From IMG/VR virus record IMGVR_UViG_3300037234_000005, positions 1-20,059 of that record: DNA of 20,059 bases; one strand, written 5' to 3'. The number at the start of each line of letters is the position of its first letter. Position 1 is the stretch's first letter. The stretch comes from a virus. Positions 12,878-19,985 of the stretch are shown piece after piece. A program made the translations under genes and the position numbers. A model generated the notes under the pieces. That model saw nothing but the letters and a program-made list of their open reading frames with translations. It did not search any database and was not told where the DNA came from.

Positions 12878-15280
12878 TTAAGCAACTGGAAATTGATCTT
12901 CCATTTGCCCTTGTTGTTCAAAATTAGTAGGTAATAAATCATTTTTTCTTTGATCTATCATAGTACTTTGTTGTGTACCTGCTATTCTTGTTCTTTTGTC
13001 TTTACGATCTTCTATTTCTTTTTCTCTTGTAGATTCTCTTTGAGTTTTCATTTGTTCTAATTGAACTTGATAATTAAACTCTTCTGACATTAATTCTCTT
13101 TTTATTTGAGCCTCTGCTTGCATACGTTGTATTTCAAACTGAGACTTAGCTTGCTCAAAGTTTACTTTTTCAGATGTTAAAGCTTGTTGTTTTTGTACTT
13201 CAGCCTCTGCTGCAGCTTGACTAGCTTGAGCGTTTGCTTGTGCTTGTTGTTGAGACATTTCAGCTTGCATTTGTCTTTCACGTTGTAACTTACGTTTACG
13301 TTTCATTTTTAACATTTGGTTAGCAAGCTTTAAATTACGTATTTGACGTATTTCTATTGCATCTTCTAAATCAATACCACCACTTGATAAAGCCACCTGT
13401 ATGTTTTGTTCTAACATTGCTTTTTCTTCTTCATCTGGCTCAAGATCTAAGAATATACCAAAGTCATGTAAATTAATTTGTTCTAAACCTCTTAACGTTT
13501 CAGTATTAAATATAGATATACTTTGTTTTAATACGTTAGCAGTTAGAGGATAATCTAACATGTCATTAACTTTCTTAGATATATTTTCACATATTCTTAA
13601 CGTTAAATATAAACTAGCGTTATTAATATGTTTTGTAGCTATATTAGAAGCTTGTGCTGCTAGTTTTTGTAAACCAACTAAAGTACTTTTATCTGGTGTA
13701 CTACCATCTCTTGCTTCGTTTAATCCTGTTACATCACGTATCATTTGTAAATAATAATTATACGTAGATATTAAACTTTGTATTTTAGCTTGACCAGAAC
13801 CTGTAGCTAATTCTTGTACAGGTACTTTACCTCTATTTATATCACCATCTTGTGTTAAAGATCTACCCACAACAGAACCTGTTTGGAAATACATATTAAG
13901 AGCTTCTGCTGGATTATAATTTGTACCATTACCTAAATCAACCTCTGCTAAACCGTCCATATCTAAGAATACACCATCTGGCACCATTCTAGCTATCACT
14001 TGTTGTAGTTTAAGATGTGTTATTTGAATCATGTCTGCAAAACCAGTTATTCTACCAACTGTAGAATCAATACGACCTTTATATATTCTAGGAGCGCATA
14101 TTGCATAATTCATTTCTACTTTTGTAGTGTCAGCAAAAGGTCTTGTCATATTAGGACACATTTCCCACCTTAATAATATATTTGTTCCTAAAACTTTAAC
14201 ACCTCTATATAAAACTTCTATTGTTCTTCCAACTCTTTCAAAGTTATCATTTTCAGGTGGATTAAAACTATCTGGTTTTTCTATAGCCTTTAATAAACCG
14301 CTTTCTGTTTCTTTTATTTTAAATACTTGATTACTATATGTTTTGTATTCAAAATACAATAAAGGAATAGTATTAGAATCCCATGCTCCTTGACCAAAAC
14401 CATATTTACTTTCTTGACTACCTTGATATTCTTGTATTTTTTCTAATACATTATCACTTAAGCTTGGAAATTGTTTTGCTATTTCTGGTAATGTTTGCGC
14501 TTTTAATTCACCTACATAATATATGTCTTCAAAATTTGGATCTTCTGTGTAAGAATATATTAAATAAGCTGGATCTACATAATCAACAGTTATACCGTTT
14601 GATACGTTAAAATCTGTTTTAACAGCTCCAATACCACAAGTTACTAAATCATAGTTTACTCTACGTCTTGTTAAATCCCATTTGTTATAATCTAACACTT
14701 GGTTTATAACTTCTTCTTCTGCTATTTCTACAGACTGCTTGTAAGTCAACTGCATATGAAGCTCTAACTCTTCTGGTGTTTGTGGTAATTGATCTTCAGG
14801 TATGTTAGTATTATATAGCTCTTTTCCTAGTTGAGCTGTTATTTGTTTCATTGTATCTCTTGCGAAAATATCTTGCGCTAATAATTCAGCATAACTAGTT
14901 CTTTTTTGTATAGCAGCAGGATCTTGTGCAAAAGCATTTATATCATAATCTTTGTTAGAAATACCATTAGATAATATATCTACGAATTTAGATATAATAG
15001 GTACTGGTTTCCAGTCTAAATTAAGATAAGACAAATCACCATTAATAGATAATTCATCTTTATATTTTTGAGTAGGTTGTTCGCCTCTAGCGTATAATCT
15101 AAGTCTATTATAATTATTCCATGTGGTTAGATATCTATTGCCATTTGTTCTCCCTTGATTAAACCATTCTTGCTCTATAGCTTGAGCAACCTGCTCGCCA
15201 TATTCCCAAGATGCTTTTTCAGCGTCGCTAACCACTTGGCTAGGAAAAATGCTATTACCGTTAGTATATACTTTTCTCAT
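12878..15280 (-). CDS. Portal protein
   Basis: An 800-residue protein encoded directly after TerL, the usual portal position. The N-terminal half has the alpha/beta character of portals: EQVAQAIEQEWFNQGRTNGN, NRLRLYARGEQPTQKYKDEL, and DWKPVPIISKFVDILSNGIS. A central conserved-looking segment reads RIYKGRIDSTVGRITGFADM, with QIRDVTGLNEARDGSTPDKS-like residues near 515-535 and LVGLQKLAAQASNIATKHIN after it. Residues 660-800 are a long Gln/Ala/Glu/Lys-rich helical region (QQQAQANAQASQAAAEAEVQ), consistent with an extended portal barrel or an interior DNA-contacting coiled coil. It would form the dodecameric DNA entry channel at one capsid vertex. Its ATG follows the TerL stop with no gap (TAA then ATG), so the two are translationally coupled. 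Confidence 0.85.
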   Translation of the reverse strand: MRKVYTNGNSIFPSQVVSDAEKASWEYGEQVAQAIEQEWFNQGRTNGNRYLTTWNNYNRLRLYARGEQPTQKYKDELSINGDLSYLNLDWKPVPIISKFVDILSNGISNKDYDINAFAQDPAAIQKRTSYAELLAQDIFARDTMKQITAQLGKELYNTNIPEDQLPQTPEELELHMQLTYKQSVEIAEEEVINQVLDYNKWDLTRRRVNYDLVTCGIGAVKTDFNVSNGITVDYVDPAYLIYSYTEDPNFEDIYYVGELKAQTLPEIAKQFPSLSDNVLEKIQEYQGSQESKYGFGQGAWDSNTIPLLYFEYKTYSNQVFKIKETESGLLKAIEKPDSFNPPENDNFERVGRTIEVLYRGVKVLGTNILLRWEMCPNMTRPFADTTKVEMNYAICAPRIYKGRIDSTVGRITGFADMIQITHLKLQQVIARMVPDGVFLDMDGLAEVDLGNGTNYNPAEALNMYFQTGSVVGRSLTQDGDINRGKVPVQELATGSGQAKIQSLISTYNYYLQMIRDVTGLNEARDGSTPDKSTLVGLQKLAAQASNIATKHINNASLYLTLRICENISKKVNDMLDYPLTANVLKQSISIFNTETLRGLEQINLHDFGIFLDLEPDEEEKAMLEQNIQVALSSGGIDLEDAIEIRQIRNLKLANQMLKMKRKRKLQRERQMQAEMSQQQAQANAQASQAAAEAEVQKQQALTSEKVNFEQAKSQFEIQRMQAEAQIKRELMSEEFNYQVQLEQMKTQRESTREKEIEDRKDKRTRIAGTQQSTMIDQRKNDLLPTNFEQQGQMEDQFPVA

Positions 15281-17494
15281 TTAATCTATCATTTTAGATA
15301 ATAACCCACTATTATCAAATTTTTTTATTCCTAAATCATAATTTTTTCTCATAACTTGAGGAACAGGTCTATATTTATTTTTATTACAAGCCATTATTGC
15401 TAAACCAGAGCTAATAGAAGCATCGTGTGTTGTTCTATTGTTTATATTAAATTTAGCCCAGTCTTCTAATGTTCTTTGAAAATATGTATCTCCATATGTA
15501 TTGTCGTCTCTAAGTCCAACGTAGCTTTCAACATAGCTTTCTATAGCAGCAGCGTGAGCTTGCATTATATCTTGACTAGAGTTAGGTATACCACCTATTT
15601 CTCTTTCTGTAACAGATAGTTTGTTATAAACTTTATCTGGTCTATTCATTGCAAAACCTCTATAACCTCTACGTTTAAAATGGTATAGTAATCTAGGTTT
15701 ATTATTCTCAGCAAGTATTGGCATACCATAAAAAATACAAGCCATTAAAACATCTTCAAAGAATATTTCAGCTGTTTGTGGACGAGCGATATATTCTAAA
15801 AAGAAATGATTTGGTGGCACGTCTTCCATGCTAAATTTAGTTAATCCATGCAAAGCTCCATTAGAACCTCTACCGTCTACTGTACCTGATATATCATAAC
15901 TGTCACAACCAAAAGCTCCTAAAGTATCATTACCAGGATATTTATTGCCTAACTTACTTATTACATTATTTTGTAATCTTTTAGGTGGAACCCATGAAAC
16001 AAAAAATCTTCCGTTTTTATTTGGTACAAATATAACAGTAGTATCTTTAATACCTCCTGTCCATTGAAAACTTCCTTGTGTTACAACAGATGATCTTTTT
16101 ATATCTGCATTCCAGTCTATTTGTTCGTATATTTTAGTTAAATTAAACAAAGAAGATTTAGCCTCATCTCTAAAAGCATGCTCTTCAGTTCTTGGAAATT
16201 GTCTATAAAATTCATTTAAAGCATCTTGATCTTGTTTTAAACCATCAACTTCATTTTGCCAGTATTCAATGACTCCAATTGTAATCGGTGTTCCGTGAGG
16301 GCCTTTAACAAGGTCTTTTGGTGAGTCGAAGACAGGATAACCGTAAGAATCAATGTATCCTTCGTAATTCCATTCCATAGGAATGAACAAAGAATAGAGT
16401 CCTGAACGTGTCTGTCCATTTGCATTTCTTTTTGTGACATCTGAGTCATAAAATAATTTTTTAAAATTCGCGCCTCCTTTATCTAAAGCATTTGATGTTG
16501 ATCCCATCATGCACTTACCGATAATTCTACTACCTAATCTAAGGGTGGTTTTCGTAACGCGCCAGTTGTTTTGAATATTGTTCGGGCGTTCCCATTTACC
16601 TGATTCGTCGTGGACGAGGAGCCTGAGTTTCTCTCCATCGTAGGCGTTGTCCCCCGTGTTTTTCCAGTCGATCGTGGTGTCCAACCCGGTGAGATCCTCG
16701 GTCTGCTCGGTTGATACGATTGATCTTCTTGTGAACTTGGACGCTGGTACTCTGTATGCGAGTTCGGTCTTTGGGCGGTCCATACCGTCCTGGATCGGTT
16801 TGAAAAAGAATGGATAATTAACGGATATTGGTACAACCTTATCGGTGAACATCTTCTTAGCATCGGAGCCAGATTTGGACAATATCCCAAAACGTGAGTC
16901 GCTTGATATGGTCGCCATATCCACTGTAACTCCGGACGCCATAAACGAAAAGCCTGAACGTCTATTCTTGAGATAGCACATACCGTAACACCTTGCATCA
17001 GCGTGTACTGCGGTCCAGAATATGAAAAAGAGACGGTTTGCCTCTCGAAAGTCTGGCTGCCCAACGTCAATCTTACTCCACTGCAAGTACATATAATGAT
17101 TGCCAGTAATGTAAGTAGGCTTATCTTTGTTAATATACCAGAAACCTTCTTCACGCCTTCTAAATTCTTCATTAATATATTCATACCATTGCTCTTTAAA
17201 ATCTTCTGGATATTCTCTCCAGTCGAATACTGTTTTTATTTTTTTTAAAACTTTAGGATATTCAAAAACTGTCCATTTATTTTCTTTAAACTTATGAACG
17301 TTCTCTTCTAAAGGCAATGCTATTTTAAGTCCTTGAATGTCATATATTTCACCTATTTTACCAGTCTTTGAAATAACAATAACATCATGTTCTGCGTTAT
17401 AACCATACTCCCATTTTTTATACCTATTTAATTGTTTTATTATTTTAGGTTTTATATGATCGTCTAGTATTTTATATAAAGTTTGCTCGTACAT
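15281..17494 (-). CDS. Terminase large subunit (packaging ATPase-nuclease)
   Basis: 737 residues. The N-terminal ATPase has a Walker A-like KNRRSGFS at 176-183, a Walker B LLVHDE at 292-297 with D296 and catalytic E297, and a coupling motif GSTSN at 331-335. The C-terminal RNase H-like nuclease probably uses GCDSYDI at 529-535 (D531), with D642 in SQDIMQ a later acidic candidate. Upstream blocks such as EGFWYINKDKPTYITGNHYM and CYGMCYLKNRRSG match my memory of crAss-like TerL. The Walker A lacks the usual GK[S/T] lysine, with Phe in its place. The enzyme translocates and cuts DNA at the portal. About residues 133-329 have strongly different base composition from the rest. Its ATG overlaps the preceding stop by one base (TAATG). 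Confidence 0.9.
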   Translation of the reverse strand: MYEQTLYKILDDHIKPKIIKQLNRYKKWEYGYNAEHDVIVISKTGKIGEIYDIQGLKIALPLEENVHKFKENKWTVFEYPKVLKKIKTVFDWREYPEDFKEQWYEYINEEFRRREEGFWYINKDKPTYITGNHYMYLQWSKIDVGQPDFREANRLFFIFWTAVHADARCYGMCYLKNRRSGFSFMASGVTVDMATISSDSRFGILSKSGSDAKKMFTDKVVPISVNYPFFFKPIQDGMDRPKTELAYRVPASKFTRRSIVSTEQTEDLTGLDTTIDWKNTGDNAYDGEKLRLLVHDESGKWERPNNIQNNWRVTKTTLRLGSRIIGKCMMGSTSNALDKGGANFKKLFYDSDVTKRNANGQTRSGLYSLFIPMEWNYEGYIDSYGYPVFDSPKDLVKGPHGTPITIGVIEYWQNEVDGLKQDQDALNEFYRQFPRTEEHAFRDEAKSSLFNLTKIYEQIDWNADIKRSSVVTQGSFQWTGGIKDTTVIFVPNKNGRFFVSWVPPKRLQNNVISKLGNKYPGNDTLGAFGCDSYDISGTVDGRGSNGALHGLTKFSMEDVPPNHFFLEYIARPQTAEIFFEDVLMACIFYGMPILAENNKPRLLYHFKRRGYRGFAMNRPDKVYNKLSVTEREIGGIPNSSQDIMQAHAAAIESYVESYVGLRDDNTYGDTYFQRTLEDWAKFNINNRTTHDASISSGLAIMACNKNKYRPVPQVMRKNYDLGIKKFDNSGLLSKMID
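16510..17095 (-). other. GC-rich compositional patch inside terL
   Basis: Hand counts give 29, 33, 31 and 34 G+C per 60 bases in the four blocks from 16561 to 16800 (127/240, about 53%). In contrast, 17401-17460 has 12/60 and 15301-15360 has 13/60. Codons in the patch end mostly in C or G (for example ACC ACG ATC GAC TGG, coding TTIDW), while flanking codons end in A or T. The fall on the right side is gradual over about 17090-17200. The reading frame and protein motifs are uninterrupted. This suggests a recombined segment from a higher-GC relative, or an assembly chimera. Confidence 0.8.
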
Positions 17495-17772
17495 TACTTA
17501 GATCTTCCTTCAGCAAAACCTTTAAACTGTTTAGGTTTCTTAGTTTCGTTTTCTATTTTACCTTCAATTATATCTTCTTCTTCTTGTATTCTATTTAAAA
17601 TTTCAAAAGCATCAAATATAGCAAGCTTTTTTGTAGCTGCAGCATTTTTAAGTCTATCAGCAGATATATCATCATCAGAGTCAACAATAGGTTCTTTAGC
17701 TACCTTTATTAATTCTTCAACTGCGACTTGCCCAGCTAGGATTATACTCTTCTTGGTTTTCTTTATTTCCAT
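17494..17772 (-). CDS. Small acidic protein upstream of terL, candidate terminase small subunit
   Basis: A 92-residue protein with no clear domain. The only Met is the first, so the start at 17772 is favoured even though it makes the gene overlap the end of the GroES-like gene by 56 bases. An acidic stretch (IVDSDDDISADRLKNAAATK) leads into a helix (KLAIFDAFEILNRIQEEEDI), and the protein ends with a basic KKPKQFKGFAEGRSK tail. Position directly before terL, small size, and a helical centre with a basic end fit a terminase small subunit, but no helix-turn-helix is evident. I recall similar proteins (..DKLKNAAATKKLAIFDAFEIL..) beside terL in marine phages, which supports a real conserved gene. 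The stop and the terL start overlap as TAATG. Confidence 0.55.
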   Translation of the reverse strand: MEIKKTKKSIILAGQVAVEELIKVAKEPIVDSDDDISADRLKNAAATKKLAIFDAFEILNRIQEEEDIIEGKIENETKKPKQFKGFAEGRSK

Positions 17773-18322
17773 ATTTAATTACAATATCATTTGATTTCAT
17801 ACAATAAAGACGTTGGTCGTCTACAATAAATTCCCATTCAGCACCTGGAACAAAACCTATAGTGTCTCCTGGTTTAATATTAGATGCTTCTAGTTTATTA
17901 TTACTAATTTTAAGCACTCCAACACTAGGATCTTCTTTTCTGTTGATTAGATCATTAGAATTTTTAATAGGCATTACAAAGCACCTATCTCCAAAAGATA
18001 ACCACTCTGTATCGTGTTTATATAAATATATTTGATCAATAGCAGCAAAATACATATTATCTTTAAAATAAGATCTACTGTTGCTTTGTTCACCTTTCAT
18101 ATTGTAAAATCTTCTAAATATGTTTTGATGAACAATTATAGTATCACCTTTTTTTATAGGAGTTTTTAAAGCTATTGGCAACGCTACAACTTTTGCTAAT
18201 CTATTAACAAATTTCCAAGACTCAACTTTAGTGTTAAGTATTAAATCTTTACCGCCTACTGTTTTTTTATTATCATACCTATCACCTACAGGTTCTATAA
18301 TAAAATCATATATACTATTCAT
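17717..18322 (-). CDS. Tandem GroES/Cpn10-like protein, putative phage co-chaperonin
   Basis: A 201-residue protein that reads as two Cpn10-like units. Unit 1 (about 1-102) has IEPVGDR at 9-15 (compare GroES IRPLHDR), GGKDLIL at 23-29 in the place of the mobile loop GGIVL, AKVVALP at 43-49, IKKGDTI at 56-62 and a closing MYFAAIDQIYLYK at 90-102. Unit 2 (about 108-185) repeats the order: FGDR at 110-113, VGVLKIS at 134-140, IKPGDTI at 149-155, RLYCMKSNDIVIKYG at 171-185. Only unit 1 has a plausible mobile loop. GroES-family proteins cap GroEL; phage versions such as T4 gp31 help fold capsid protein. Here the gene is just upstream of packaging and head genes. Start ATG overlaps the preceding stop (TAATG). 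Family membership is inferred from motif order. Confidence 0.6.
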   Translation of the reverse strand: MNSIYDFIIEPVGDRYDNKKTVGGKDLILNTKVESWKFVNRLAKVVALPIALKTPIKKGDTIIVHQNIFRRFYNMKGEQSNSRSYFKDNMYFAAIDQIYLYKHDTEWLSFGDRCFVMPIKNSNDLINRKEDPSVGVLKISNNKLEASNIKPGDTIGFVPGAEWEFIVDDQRLYCMKSNDIVIKYGNKENQEEYNPSWASRS

Positions 18323-19643: not shown

Positions 19644-19985
19644 TTAATATTTTTTAAATGGATCTGTTTTAGAATACGCTTCTTTTTCCCAAGGCAAGTT
19701 TTCTGCACCTTCTTGCATTTCTTCTCTAGAGTATTTTTTACCTTTCCAATACACGTTTTCATCATCATAATCTAAGTCACCTCGTTTCATTTGATCTATA
19801 TGTACTTTCTCATGCTCAATAACACTTTGTCTTTCTTCAGGGTCTTTTATTTTGTCTGATACTAAAATAGTACCGTTATTATTAGCTTTACCTAGAACTC
19901 CTTCTTCAAGATCTGTATTATATATAGGTGTAGCATCTTTTAAAAATGGAGCTTTTACAGTAAATTTATTTTTTAGTCTAAGCAT
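19644..19985 (-). CDS. Putative zinc metallopeptidase with HExxH motif (113 aa)
   Basis: The protein carries HEKVH at residues 58-62, preceded by SVIE as in helix alpha of zincins, followed by IDQMKRGDLDYDD, YWKGKKY and PWEKEAY. E100 or E102 in that last motif is a good candidate for a third zinc ligand. It is short, about one minimal gluzincin-like domain, with no signal peptide. I recall this pattern in small phage proteins of marine and Bacteroidota phages. It may act on peptidoglycan-associated or host protein, or process a virion protein; the substrate cannot be judged. It sits next to the holin-like gene (8-base gap) and one base after the preceding gene's stop, so it is expressed with them. 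Confidence 0.65.
   Translation of the reverse strand: MLRLKNKFTVKAPFLKDATPIYNTDLEEGVLGKANNNGTILVSDKIKDPEERQSVIEHEKVHIDQMKRGDLDYDDENVYWKGKKYSREEMQEGAENLPWEKEAYSKTDPFKKY

Follow-up and report, generated by a model that had tools for sequence, protein, structure and literature searches.

We report a 201-residue phage protein that is predicted to contain two Cpn10 domains in a single chain, arranged like those of the Cpn20 co-chaperonins, with a GroES-type mobile loop in the first domain and a shortened loop at the corresponding place in the second. The gene is carried by a 20,059-nucleotide stretch of viral DNA (IMG/VR record IMGVR_UViG_3300037234_000005, positions 1 to 20,059), referred to here as the window. 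The open reading frame proposed in the initial annotation (17717-18322, minus strand, 201 residues) was confirmed, as was its location upstream of the packaging and capsid genes, since terminase, portal and capsid-type genes do come after it. The protein is probably a Cpn20-like co-chaperonin subunit that caps GroEL for the folding of large head proteins.

The phage co-chaperonin family to which the protein belongs is real and has been catalogued before, under the label GroES in PHROGs and in records of RefSeq and GenBank. Judged from sequences and models, its tandem architecture, with one predicted gripping loop and a coexisting single-domain Cpn10, appears to be new; no account of a phage tandem Cpn10 was found in the literature searched, in which the coverage of subscription journals was thin. 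The available text of PMC5780408 describes the tandem Cpn20 type as chloroplast-specific and refers to an even number of domains on a seven-fold chaperonin as a 'symmetry dilemma'. The phage family provides the tandem protein, the single Cpn10 and often GroEL as small, separable genes. With a second loop that is present or absent by clade, it forms a natural series for asking what number of gripping loops a lid requires, and also whether a lid can specialise for one capsid protein. The features discussed below are listed in Table 1.

Table 1. Features of the tandem gene and its neighbours in the window.
Feature	Coordinates	Strand	Basis
Tandem Cpn10-like protein, 201 aa (phrog_13932)	17717..18322	-	Open reading frame, profile, AlphaFold2 model, structure match
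Predicted Cpn10 half 1, residues 1-104	18011..18322	-	Residues 1-105 folded separately, VIA matches
Putative mobile-loop region of half 1, residues 12-40	18203..18289	-	Low pLDDT, conserved triad, profile alignment
Hydrophobic triad Leu-Ile-Leu, residues 27-29 of half 1	18236-18244	-	
Predicted two-residue turn between halves, residues 104-105	18008..18013	-	Secondary structure of the model (strands 98-103 and 106-109)
Predicted Cpn10 half 2, residues 105-184	17771..18010	-	VIA matches, Pfam Cpn10 below cut-off, phage Cpn10 profile
Shortened second loop at the mobile-loop place, residues 121-129	17936..17962	-	AlphaFold2 model, alignment of 22 rows
C-terminal tail with EYNPSW, residues 185-201	17720..17770	-	Fully overprinted by the following gene (different frame)
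Small conserved upstream gene, 75 aa	18322..18549	-	Adjacent relative in 182/182 loci
92-aa gene between tandem gene and TerL	17494..17772	-	No Pfam or PHROG match at E 1
Terminase large subunit (TerL)	15281..17494	-	phrog_6681, E 1.5e-156
Portal protein	12878..15280	-	phrog_6547, E 2.5e-146
Virion structural protein, probable major capsid protein, 483 aa	10220..11671	-	phrog_13704, E 1.7e-87

Overall structure

The AlphaFold2 model of the full tandem protein was built from 53 aligned sequences (mean pLDDT 83.1, pTM 0.76) and displays two Cpn10 barrels, with strand 98-103 of the first leading into strand 106-109 of the second through a two-residue turn. The best solved match over the full length is 7ekq_R (VIA Z 10.5, r.m.s.d. 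4.4 for 158 aligned residues, spanning 1-185; Foldseek E 1.1e-5, TM 0.54), a chain of a Chlamydomonas structure that is named in the PDB as a Cpn20 co-chaperonin subunit. Chain 7ekq_Q (Cpn23) also spans the full length, with a weaker score (Foldseek E 4.1e-3). The single-domain Cpn10 chains found by VIA with the full-length query fall on half 2, which superposes on 8wuc_a with a Z of 9.5 (r.m.s.d. 2.3, 78 aligned) and on GroES, 1aon_O, with a Z of 8.5 (r.m.s.d. 2.2, 79 aligned). The best matches among viral models are an unnamed 186-residue protein (E 2.9e-20) and a protein of phage phi18:3 (E 3.1e-13). These results support the assignment of two Cpn10 domains in one chain with a Cpn20-like arrangement, as far as predicted structures allow.

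Half 1 was also folded separately (residues 1-105, pLDDT 85.8). Its top 15 VIA matches are all Cpn10 or co-chaperonin chains (Z 7.5-6.0), with dehydrogenases at a Z of 5.0 or below, and Foldseek gave no match for half 1 alone at E 0.001 (best 4.4e-3). Because a best VIA Z of 7 to 8 is frequent even for models without relatives, the Cpn10 assignment of this half leans on the uniformity of the top matches and on the phage Cpn10 profile. For half 1, the profile comparison with phage single-domain Cpn10s gives E 2.2e-4 over 51 columns, aligned in the expected register, and its controls (one reversed, five column-shuffled) reached no better than 0.06; half 2 matches the same Cpn10s over 77 columns with E 3.5e-6, its controls reaching no better than 0.09.

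The window protein matches phrog_13932 ('co-chaperonin GroES') with E 1.3e-22, residues 1-182 aligning to positions 1-197 of the 200 in the profile, and each half used alone as the query matches its own portion of this profile. Pfam Cpn10 aligns to residues 140-183 with 16.3 bits, below the curated cut-off of 21.1; the second halves of phi38:1, Calle_1 and one further record (L089) are above this cut-off, and only 17 of the 53 relatives match Pfam Cpn10 at E 0.1. DUF4261 and other weak Pfam matches, all below cut-off, were taken as chance.

The initial annotation had proposed two Cpn10s in tandem, one of the halves apparently lacking its loop, and the two predicted barrels together with the whole-length match to Cpn20 agree with this; neither a half with a different fold nor a match to a different family emerged from the structure and PHROG comparisons. 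The annotation had read the repeat from motifs shared by the two halves. The motifs are where it placed them (IKKGDTI at 56-62 and IKPGDTI at 149-155; GDR at 13-15 and 111-113), and the closing strands that it put at 90-102 and 171-185 are about right, the strands in the model being 98-103 and 180-183. The repeat itself is not visible from sequence alone: the halves share only the seven-residue IKxGDTI, their raw alignment score is equalled by 20% of 2000 shuffles (p 0.20) and their profile comparison gives 0.022, against 0.024 for the best of five column shuffles. Nor are the two GDR motifs equivalent, since the first is in the loop that follows strand 7-11 and the second lies just before strand 113-120; GD-R at the first place is found in 8 of the 53 relatives and GDR at the second in 17. 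We accept the repeat because of the structure and the separate matches of each half to single-domain phage Cpn10 profiles.

Mobile loops and roof

A GroES-type loop with a hydrophobic tripeptide is present in half 1 and absent from half 2 of the window protein; the loop had been assigned to the first half only, and the model and an alignment of 22 rows uphold this for the window lineage. In 50 of the 53 relatives each of residues 27-29 is hydrophobic, and in the profile alignment the triad falls on the mobile loop of the single-domain phage Cpn10s. The model is less confident here than anywhere except in the C-terminal tail (pLDDT 70 for residues 11-20, 72 for 21-30 and 56 for 31-40), as expected for a mobile loop. 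The triad place is not fully hydrophobic in Panino and phi18:3, which are both outside the 53 relatives. Seven polar residues of half 1 (Tyr16, Asn18, Glu34, Arg41, Asp60, His65 and Asn67) are invariant in the 53.

The second loop is long in four of the 22 rows, those of phi38:1 (L085), L089, L090 and phi18:3 (L241), and contains GroES-like stretches such as GSIIVPN (L089) and PSLIYIPED (phi18:3). The remaining 18 rows have a short loop; they include Panino, the elemoviruses, the window protein and the ctfjg026 group, in which the loop is two residues longer. Since the long form occurs both in phi38:1-like phages and in phi18:3, the comparison of sequences suggests that the second mobile loop was probably lost in the window lineage rather than never present. 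A TerL tree of 21 rows with a midpoint root places phi18:3 and the phi38:1 group on opposite sides and would agree with such a loss, perhaps twice; this agreement is not firm, as a gain is also compatible with the tree and phi18:3 is a long branch. The tree of the tandem proteins likewise has phi18:3 as a long branch, the placement of which is not settled.

The roof stretch (residues 49 to 58 of half 1 and 141 to 151 of half 2) is 10 residues long in half 1 of 50 of the 53 relatives and 11 residues long in half 2 of 47. Neither half of the AlphaFold2 model contains a roof hairpin. Compared with E. coli GroES, the stretch is nine residues shorter in 20 of 21 distinct phage single-domain Cpn10s and six shorter in that of Panino; by eye, the window protein is about eight residues shorter in half 1 and six in half 2.

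Genomic context

The surroundings of the tandem gene are highly constant in loci that were collected via the tandem gene itself and that include many near copies. A TerL gene is found downstream within 1500 bases in all 168 loci with at least 1400 bases of downstream sequence (an earlier pass with a 700-base limit had given 149 of 188), and a portal gene and a capsid-type gene follow in all 48 loci with at least 6500 bases. The gene of phage Calle_1 at the place that matches the probable capsid gene of the window is annotated as a structural or major capsid protein. The tandem gene is on the plus strand in 189 of 190 loci.

A relative of the 75-residue upstream gene is directly adjacent in every one of the 182 loci with more than 300 bases upstream, and in the window its stop and the start of the tandem gene overlap by one base. 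Searches of Pfam and PHROG with this small protein gave no family above cut-off; it is a possible partner of the co-chaperonin. By eye, the gene in this position of phi18:3 does not resemble it.

At its other end, the tandem gene of the window clade extends 56 bases into the next gene, an overlap that is identical in 79 of 80 clade members. The EYNPSW motif is kept in all 81 clade proteins, the window protein included, and is missing from the rows of other clades. As residues 185-201 are fully overprinted, the conservation of the tail may stem from the overlapping gene and is not evidence of function. In the ctfjg026 group, at least 39 of 80 members have a next gene that begins no more than six bases from where the tandem gene ends; in at least 29 of 80 (e.g. 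L094), about 450-570 bases separate the tandem gene from the 92-aa-type gene. The TerLs of the elemoviruses, Panino and phi38:1 are 139-142 residues longer than that of the window and directly follow the tandem gene. From a likeness seen by eye, the 92-residue protein may be fused to TerL in these phages, and it may represent a small-terminase part.

Two other genes of the window were noted. The 113-residue protein encoded at 19644-19985, beside a holin, contains HEKVH, which fits the HExxH pattern of zinc metallopeptidases; its best family is phrog_16532, of unknown function. The 135-residue protein encoded at 412-819, which ends the structural cluster, matches phrog_17252 (unknown function, E 3.7e-25) and looks acetyltransferase-like by eye.

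Companion GroEL and single-domain Cpn10

Chaperonin genes were counted in 31 records (26 viral contigs and five named phages) chosen by length or name from the tandem-gene loci; the phrog_13932 model finds the tandem gene in all 31, which is a control only, the records having been selected for that gene. Phage GroEL is present in 22 records, and a separate single-domain Cpn10 above the curated cut-off in 23, namely all 22 with GroEL and one more (G012). The eight records with neither GroEL nor a single Cpn10 are contigs of 21 to 42 kb and are probably fragments. Phage phi18:3 (71,443 bases, circular) encodes the tandem protein and a single GroES, and a search of its genome for GroEL gave no match. 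Among the records of at least 56 kb, a limit set after the fact and including phi18:3, the tandem and single genes occur together in 15 of 15 and GroEL in 13 of 15.

The elemovirus-type single Cpn10 occurs, as does the tandem gene, in 68 records of Flavobacterium phages, which are close isolates. A single Cpn10 sits beside GroEL in the elemovirus and ctfjg026 records. All three genes are present in four of 11 window-clade records (G004, G006, G007 and G011). In these four, 7.0 to 9.6 kb separate the tandem gene from the single Cpn10, which is upstream of it and in the same orientation, and GroEL comes just past the single Cpn10; this place would fall past the end of the window.

GroEL has been reported in 36 of 78 environmental genomes of the phi38:1 group of marine viruses (PMC5332604), and GroEL and GroES homologues in Panino (PMC11590407); the available text of these two papers makes no mention of a tandem protein. 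According to the available part of PMC13288928, the GroEL of phi38:1 is detected in infected cells and is also among the methylated proteins of free virions. In the accessible part of the phi18:3 record, the proteins marked as found by mass spectrometry do not include the tandem protein, as expected for a non-virion chaperone. Several Bacteroides phages, DAC16 and SJC03 among them (MT074137.1, MT074146.1; 167-179 kb), encode a homologue of the phi18:3 single GroES (48% identity over 92% of its length) that is annotated as hypothetical.

Comparison with known systems

The window protein shares with Cpn20 (Chlamydomonas CPN20 and CPN23, Arabidopsis Cpn20 and Plasmodium cpn20) the head-to-tail arrangement of two Cpn10 domains, the structural match over the full length and, in relatives of the window phage, a single Cpn10 partner encoded in the same genome. 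It differs in being only 12% identical over the residues aligned with 7ekq_R, in the predicted absence of the second loop, in the short roofs of both halves and in being encoded by a phage, inside a head gene cluster. Apicomplexan cpn20 has a mobile loop and a roof in both domains, in the portion of PMC3542282 that is available. The tandem protein is Cpn20-like, yet we do not class it as a Cpn20 because its model has a mobile loop in one domain where Cpn20 has one in both. Known Cpn20 rings combine tandem and single subunits to a total of seven domains, and tandem-only forms of Cpn20 are functional in vitro too (PMC5780408 and PMC3542282, in their available text). The 7ekq chains, two Cpn20, one Cpn23 and one Cpn11, amount to seven domains by count.

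T4 gp31 is likewise a phage-encoded protein with a Cpn10 fold, and 1g31_A superposes on each half (half 1, Z 7.0, r.m.s.d. 3.8, 79 aligned; half 2, Z 7.1, r.m.s.d. 2.8, 78 aligned). Its roof is missing or short. It is a single-domain protein that forms a heptamer and replaces the host GroES, whereas the window protein is a tandem with relatives whose genomes also encode a single Cpn10. The phrog_13932 proteins of Cellulophaga, Flavobacterium and Maribacter phages, annotated as 'co-chaperonin GroES' or 'chaperonin cpn10', are full-length members of the same family at the same place before TerL, but their annotations are silent on the tandem build, the missing loop and the coexisting single GroES. 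The ctfjg026 record labels its tandem gene 'hypothetical protein'.

Proposed function

The mechanism that we infer, including GroEL binding, ring formation, substrate and time of expression, would be as follows. Two short-roofed Cpn10 barrels, joined in one chain by a tight turn, would be made together with the packaging and head proteins and would cap a phage-made or host-made GroEL while large head proteins fold, the major capsid protein being the most likely substrate. Half 1 would grip GroEL via its mobile loop; half 2 would serve mostly in building the ring, with no grip left in the window lineage. Each GroES subunit joins its neighbour by strand pairing, its own last strand meeting the first strand of that neighbour. 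The tight turn, which links strands 98-103 and 106-109, would place one interface of this inter-subunit type within the chain and leave both ends free for neighbours. The position of the gene and the predicted loop make a part in capsid folding plausible for such a co-chaperonin, a picture complicated by the separate phage GroES and GroEL of many relatives.

Rings of the tandem protein alone would contain an even number of domains, against the seven places on GroEL. The occurrence of a single Cpn10 alongside the tandem protein suggests a mixed ring as in chloroplasts, in which three tandem chains and one single Cpn10 would provide seven short-roofed domains on GroEL. Four of the seven, the three first halves and the single, would grip, giving an asymmetric, open-topped lid suited to capsid proteins. 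We put this stoichiometry forward tentatively, as a possibility; its domain count equals that of the 7ekq chains and, by analogy, such a ring may perhaps have been reached independently in phages. The association of the tandem gene with the head genes and of the single Cpn10 with GroEL counts against it, as do the invariant polar residues of half 1, which a ring of this kind does not call for.

The co-chaperonin reading is favored because both halves have a predicted Cpn10 fold and the entire chain matches Cpn20, because the half 1 triad is hydrophobic in 50 of 53 relatives and second-loop motifs survive in some of them, and because the roofs are short, the TerL, portal and capsid context is constant and GroEL is present in 22 of 31 records. 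Counted against it are the triads of Panino and phi18:3, the weak Pfam Cpn10 match and the Foldseek E of 4.4e-3 for half 1. The single Cpn10 of the relatives also counts against it, as the tandem protein is therefore not required merely as a source of GroES, as do the invariant polar residues of half 1, which plain Cpn10 function perhaps does not explain. These residues would fit a specialised paralogue that has kept the Cpn10 fold but leaves folding to GroEL and the single Cpn10, itself acting independently in packaging or head assembly, perhaps as an assembly factor on the terminase, the portal or the capsid shell. The presence of that pair in the same 22 records, the constant nearness of the tandem gene to TerL and the short second loop in most rows would suit such a role. 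The hydrophobic triad and the retention of a second motif-bearing loop in some relatives argue against it, and the tandem protein is not marked as a virion protein in the accessible part of the phi18:3 record; we regard a specialised paralogue as rather unlikely.

The top solved match also raises the idea that the protein caps or regulates a protease, for instance the host ClpP, since it is the Cpn20 chain of a Chlamydomonas complex in which CPN11, CPN20 and CPN23 form a heterotetramer on one axial side of the CLP core (PMC8889267, available text). The match is to the co-chaperonin itself, which is active with chaperonins too, and the neighbouring genes that were inspected gave no hint of ClpP, so that this function appears highly improbable. 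The TerL gene downstream in all 168 testable loci would also fit a small-terminase-like or virion structural protein that resembles GroES by chance. Both halves have the Cpn10 fold in the models, the 92-residue protein or the longer TerL that intervenes before the terminase core is a better small-terminase candidate, and the portion of the phi18:3 record available does not mark the tandem protein as found in virions; we consider a chance likeness very unlikely.

Distribution

The group is widespread among marine and freshwater phages. Relatives are encoded in 426 viral-contig stretches found with the window query and in 540 found with the ctfjg026 query, and the best 80 of each were analysed; the expectation in the initial annotation that a phage version with one apparently loop-less half would be unusual is not borne out by these numbers. 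Other queries found four (phi38:1) and 20 (elemovirus) relatives among the viral contigs, in sets that may overlap, and the Panino query found none there. The phage records that match the window query number 77, with GenBank and RefSeq copies counted separately: 68 of elemoviruses from one host, seven of Cellulophaga phages, one of a Maribacter phage and one uncultured. The L089 query matched 87 phage records at E 10; two of these matches, to an Erwinia phage and to a fecal fragment, were discounted as too weak.

The species-genome collection yielded 16 relatives, every one in a metagenome-assembled genome (MAG) record, and no cellular tandem Cpn10 family at the search sensitivity used. The small upstream gene is present at all 16 loci and TerL at 14, the other two contigs ending too early, so that these loci are read as phage sequence inside MAGs. 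One of them (L247, CP070801.1) is a complete-looking head cluster with the tandem gene in the record of a 1.05-Mb archaeal MAG chromosome.
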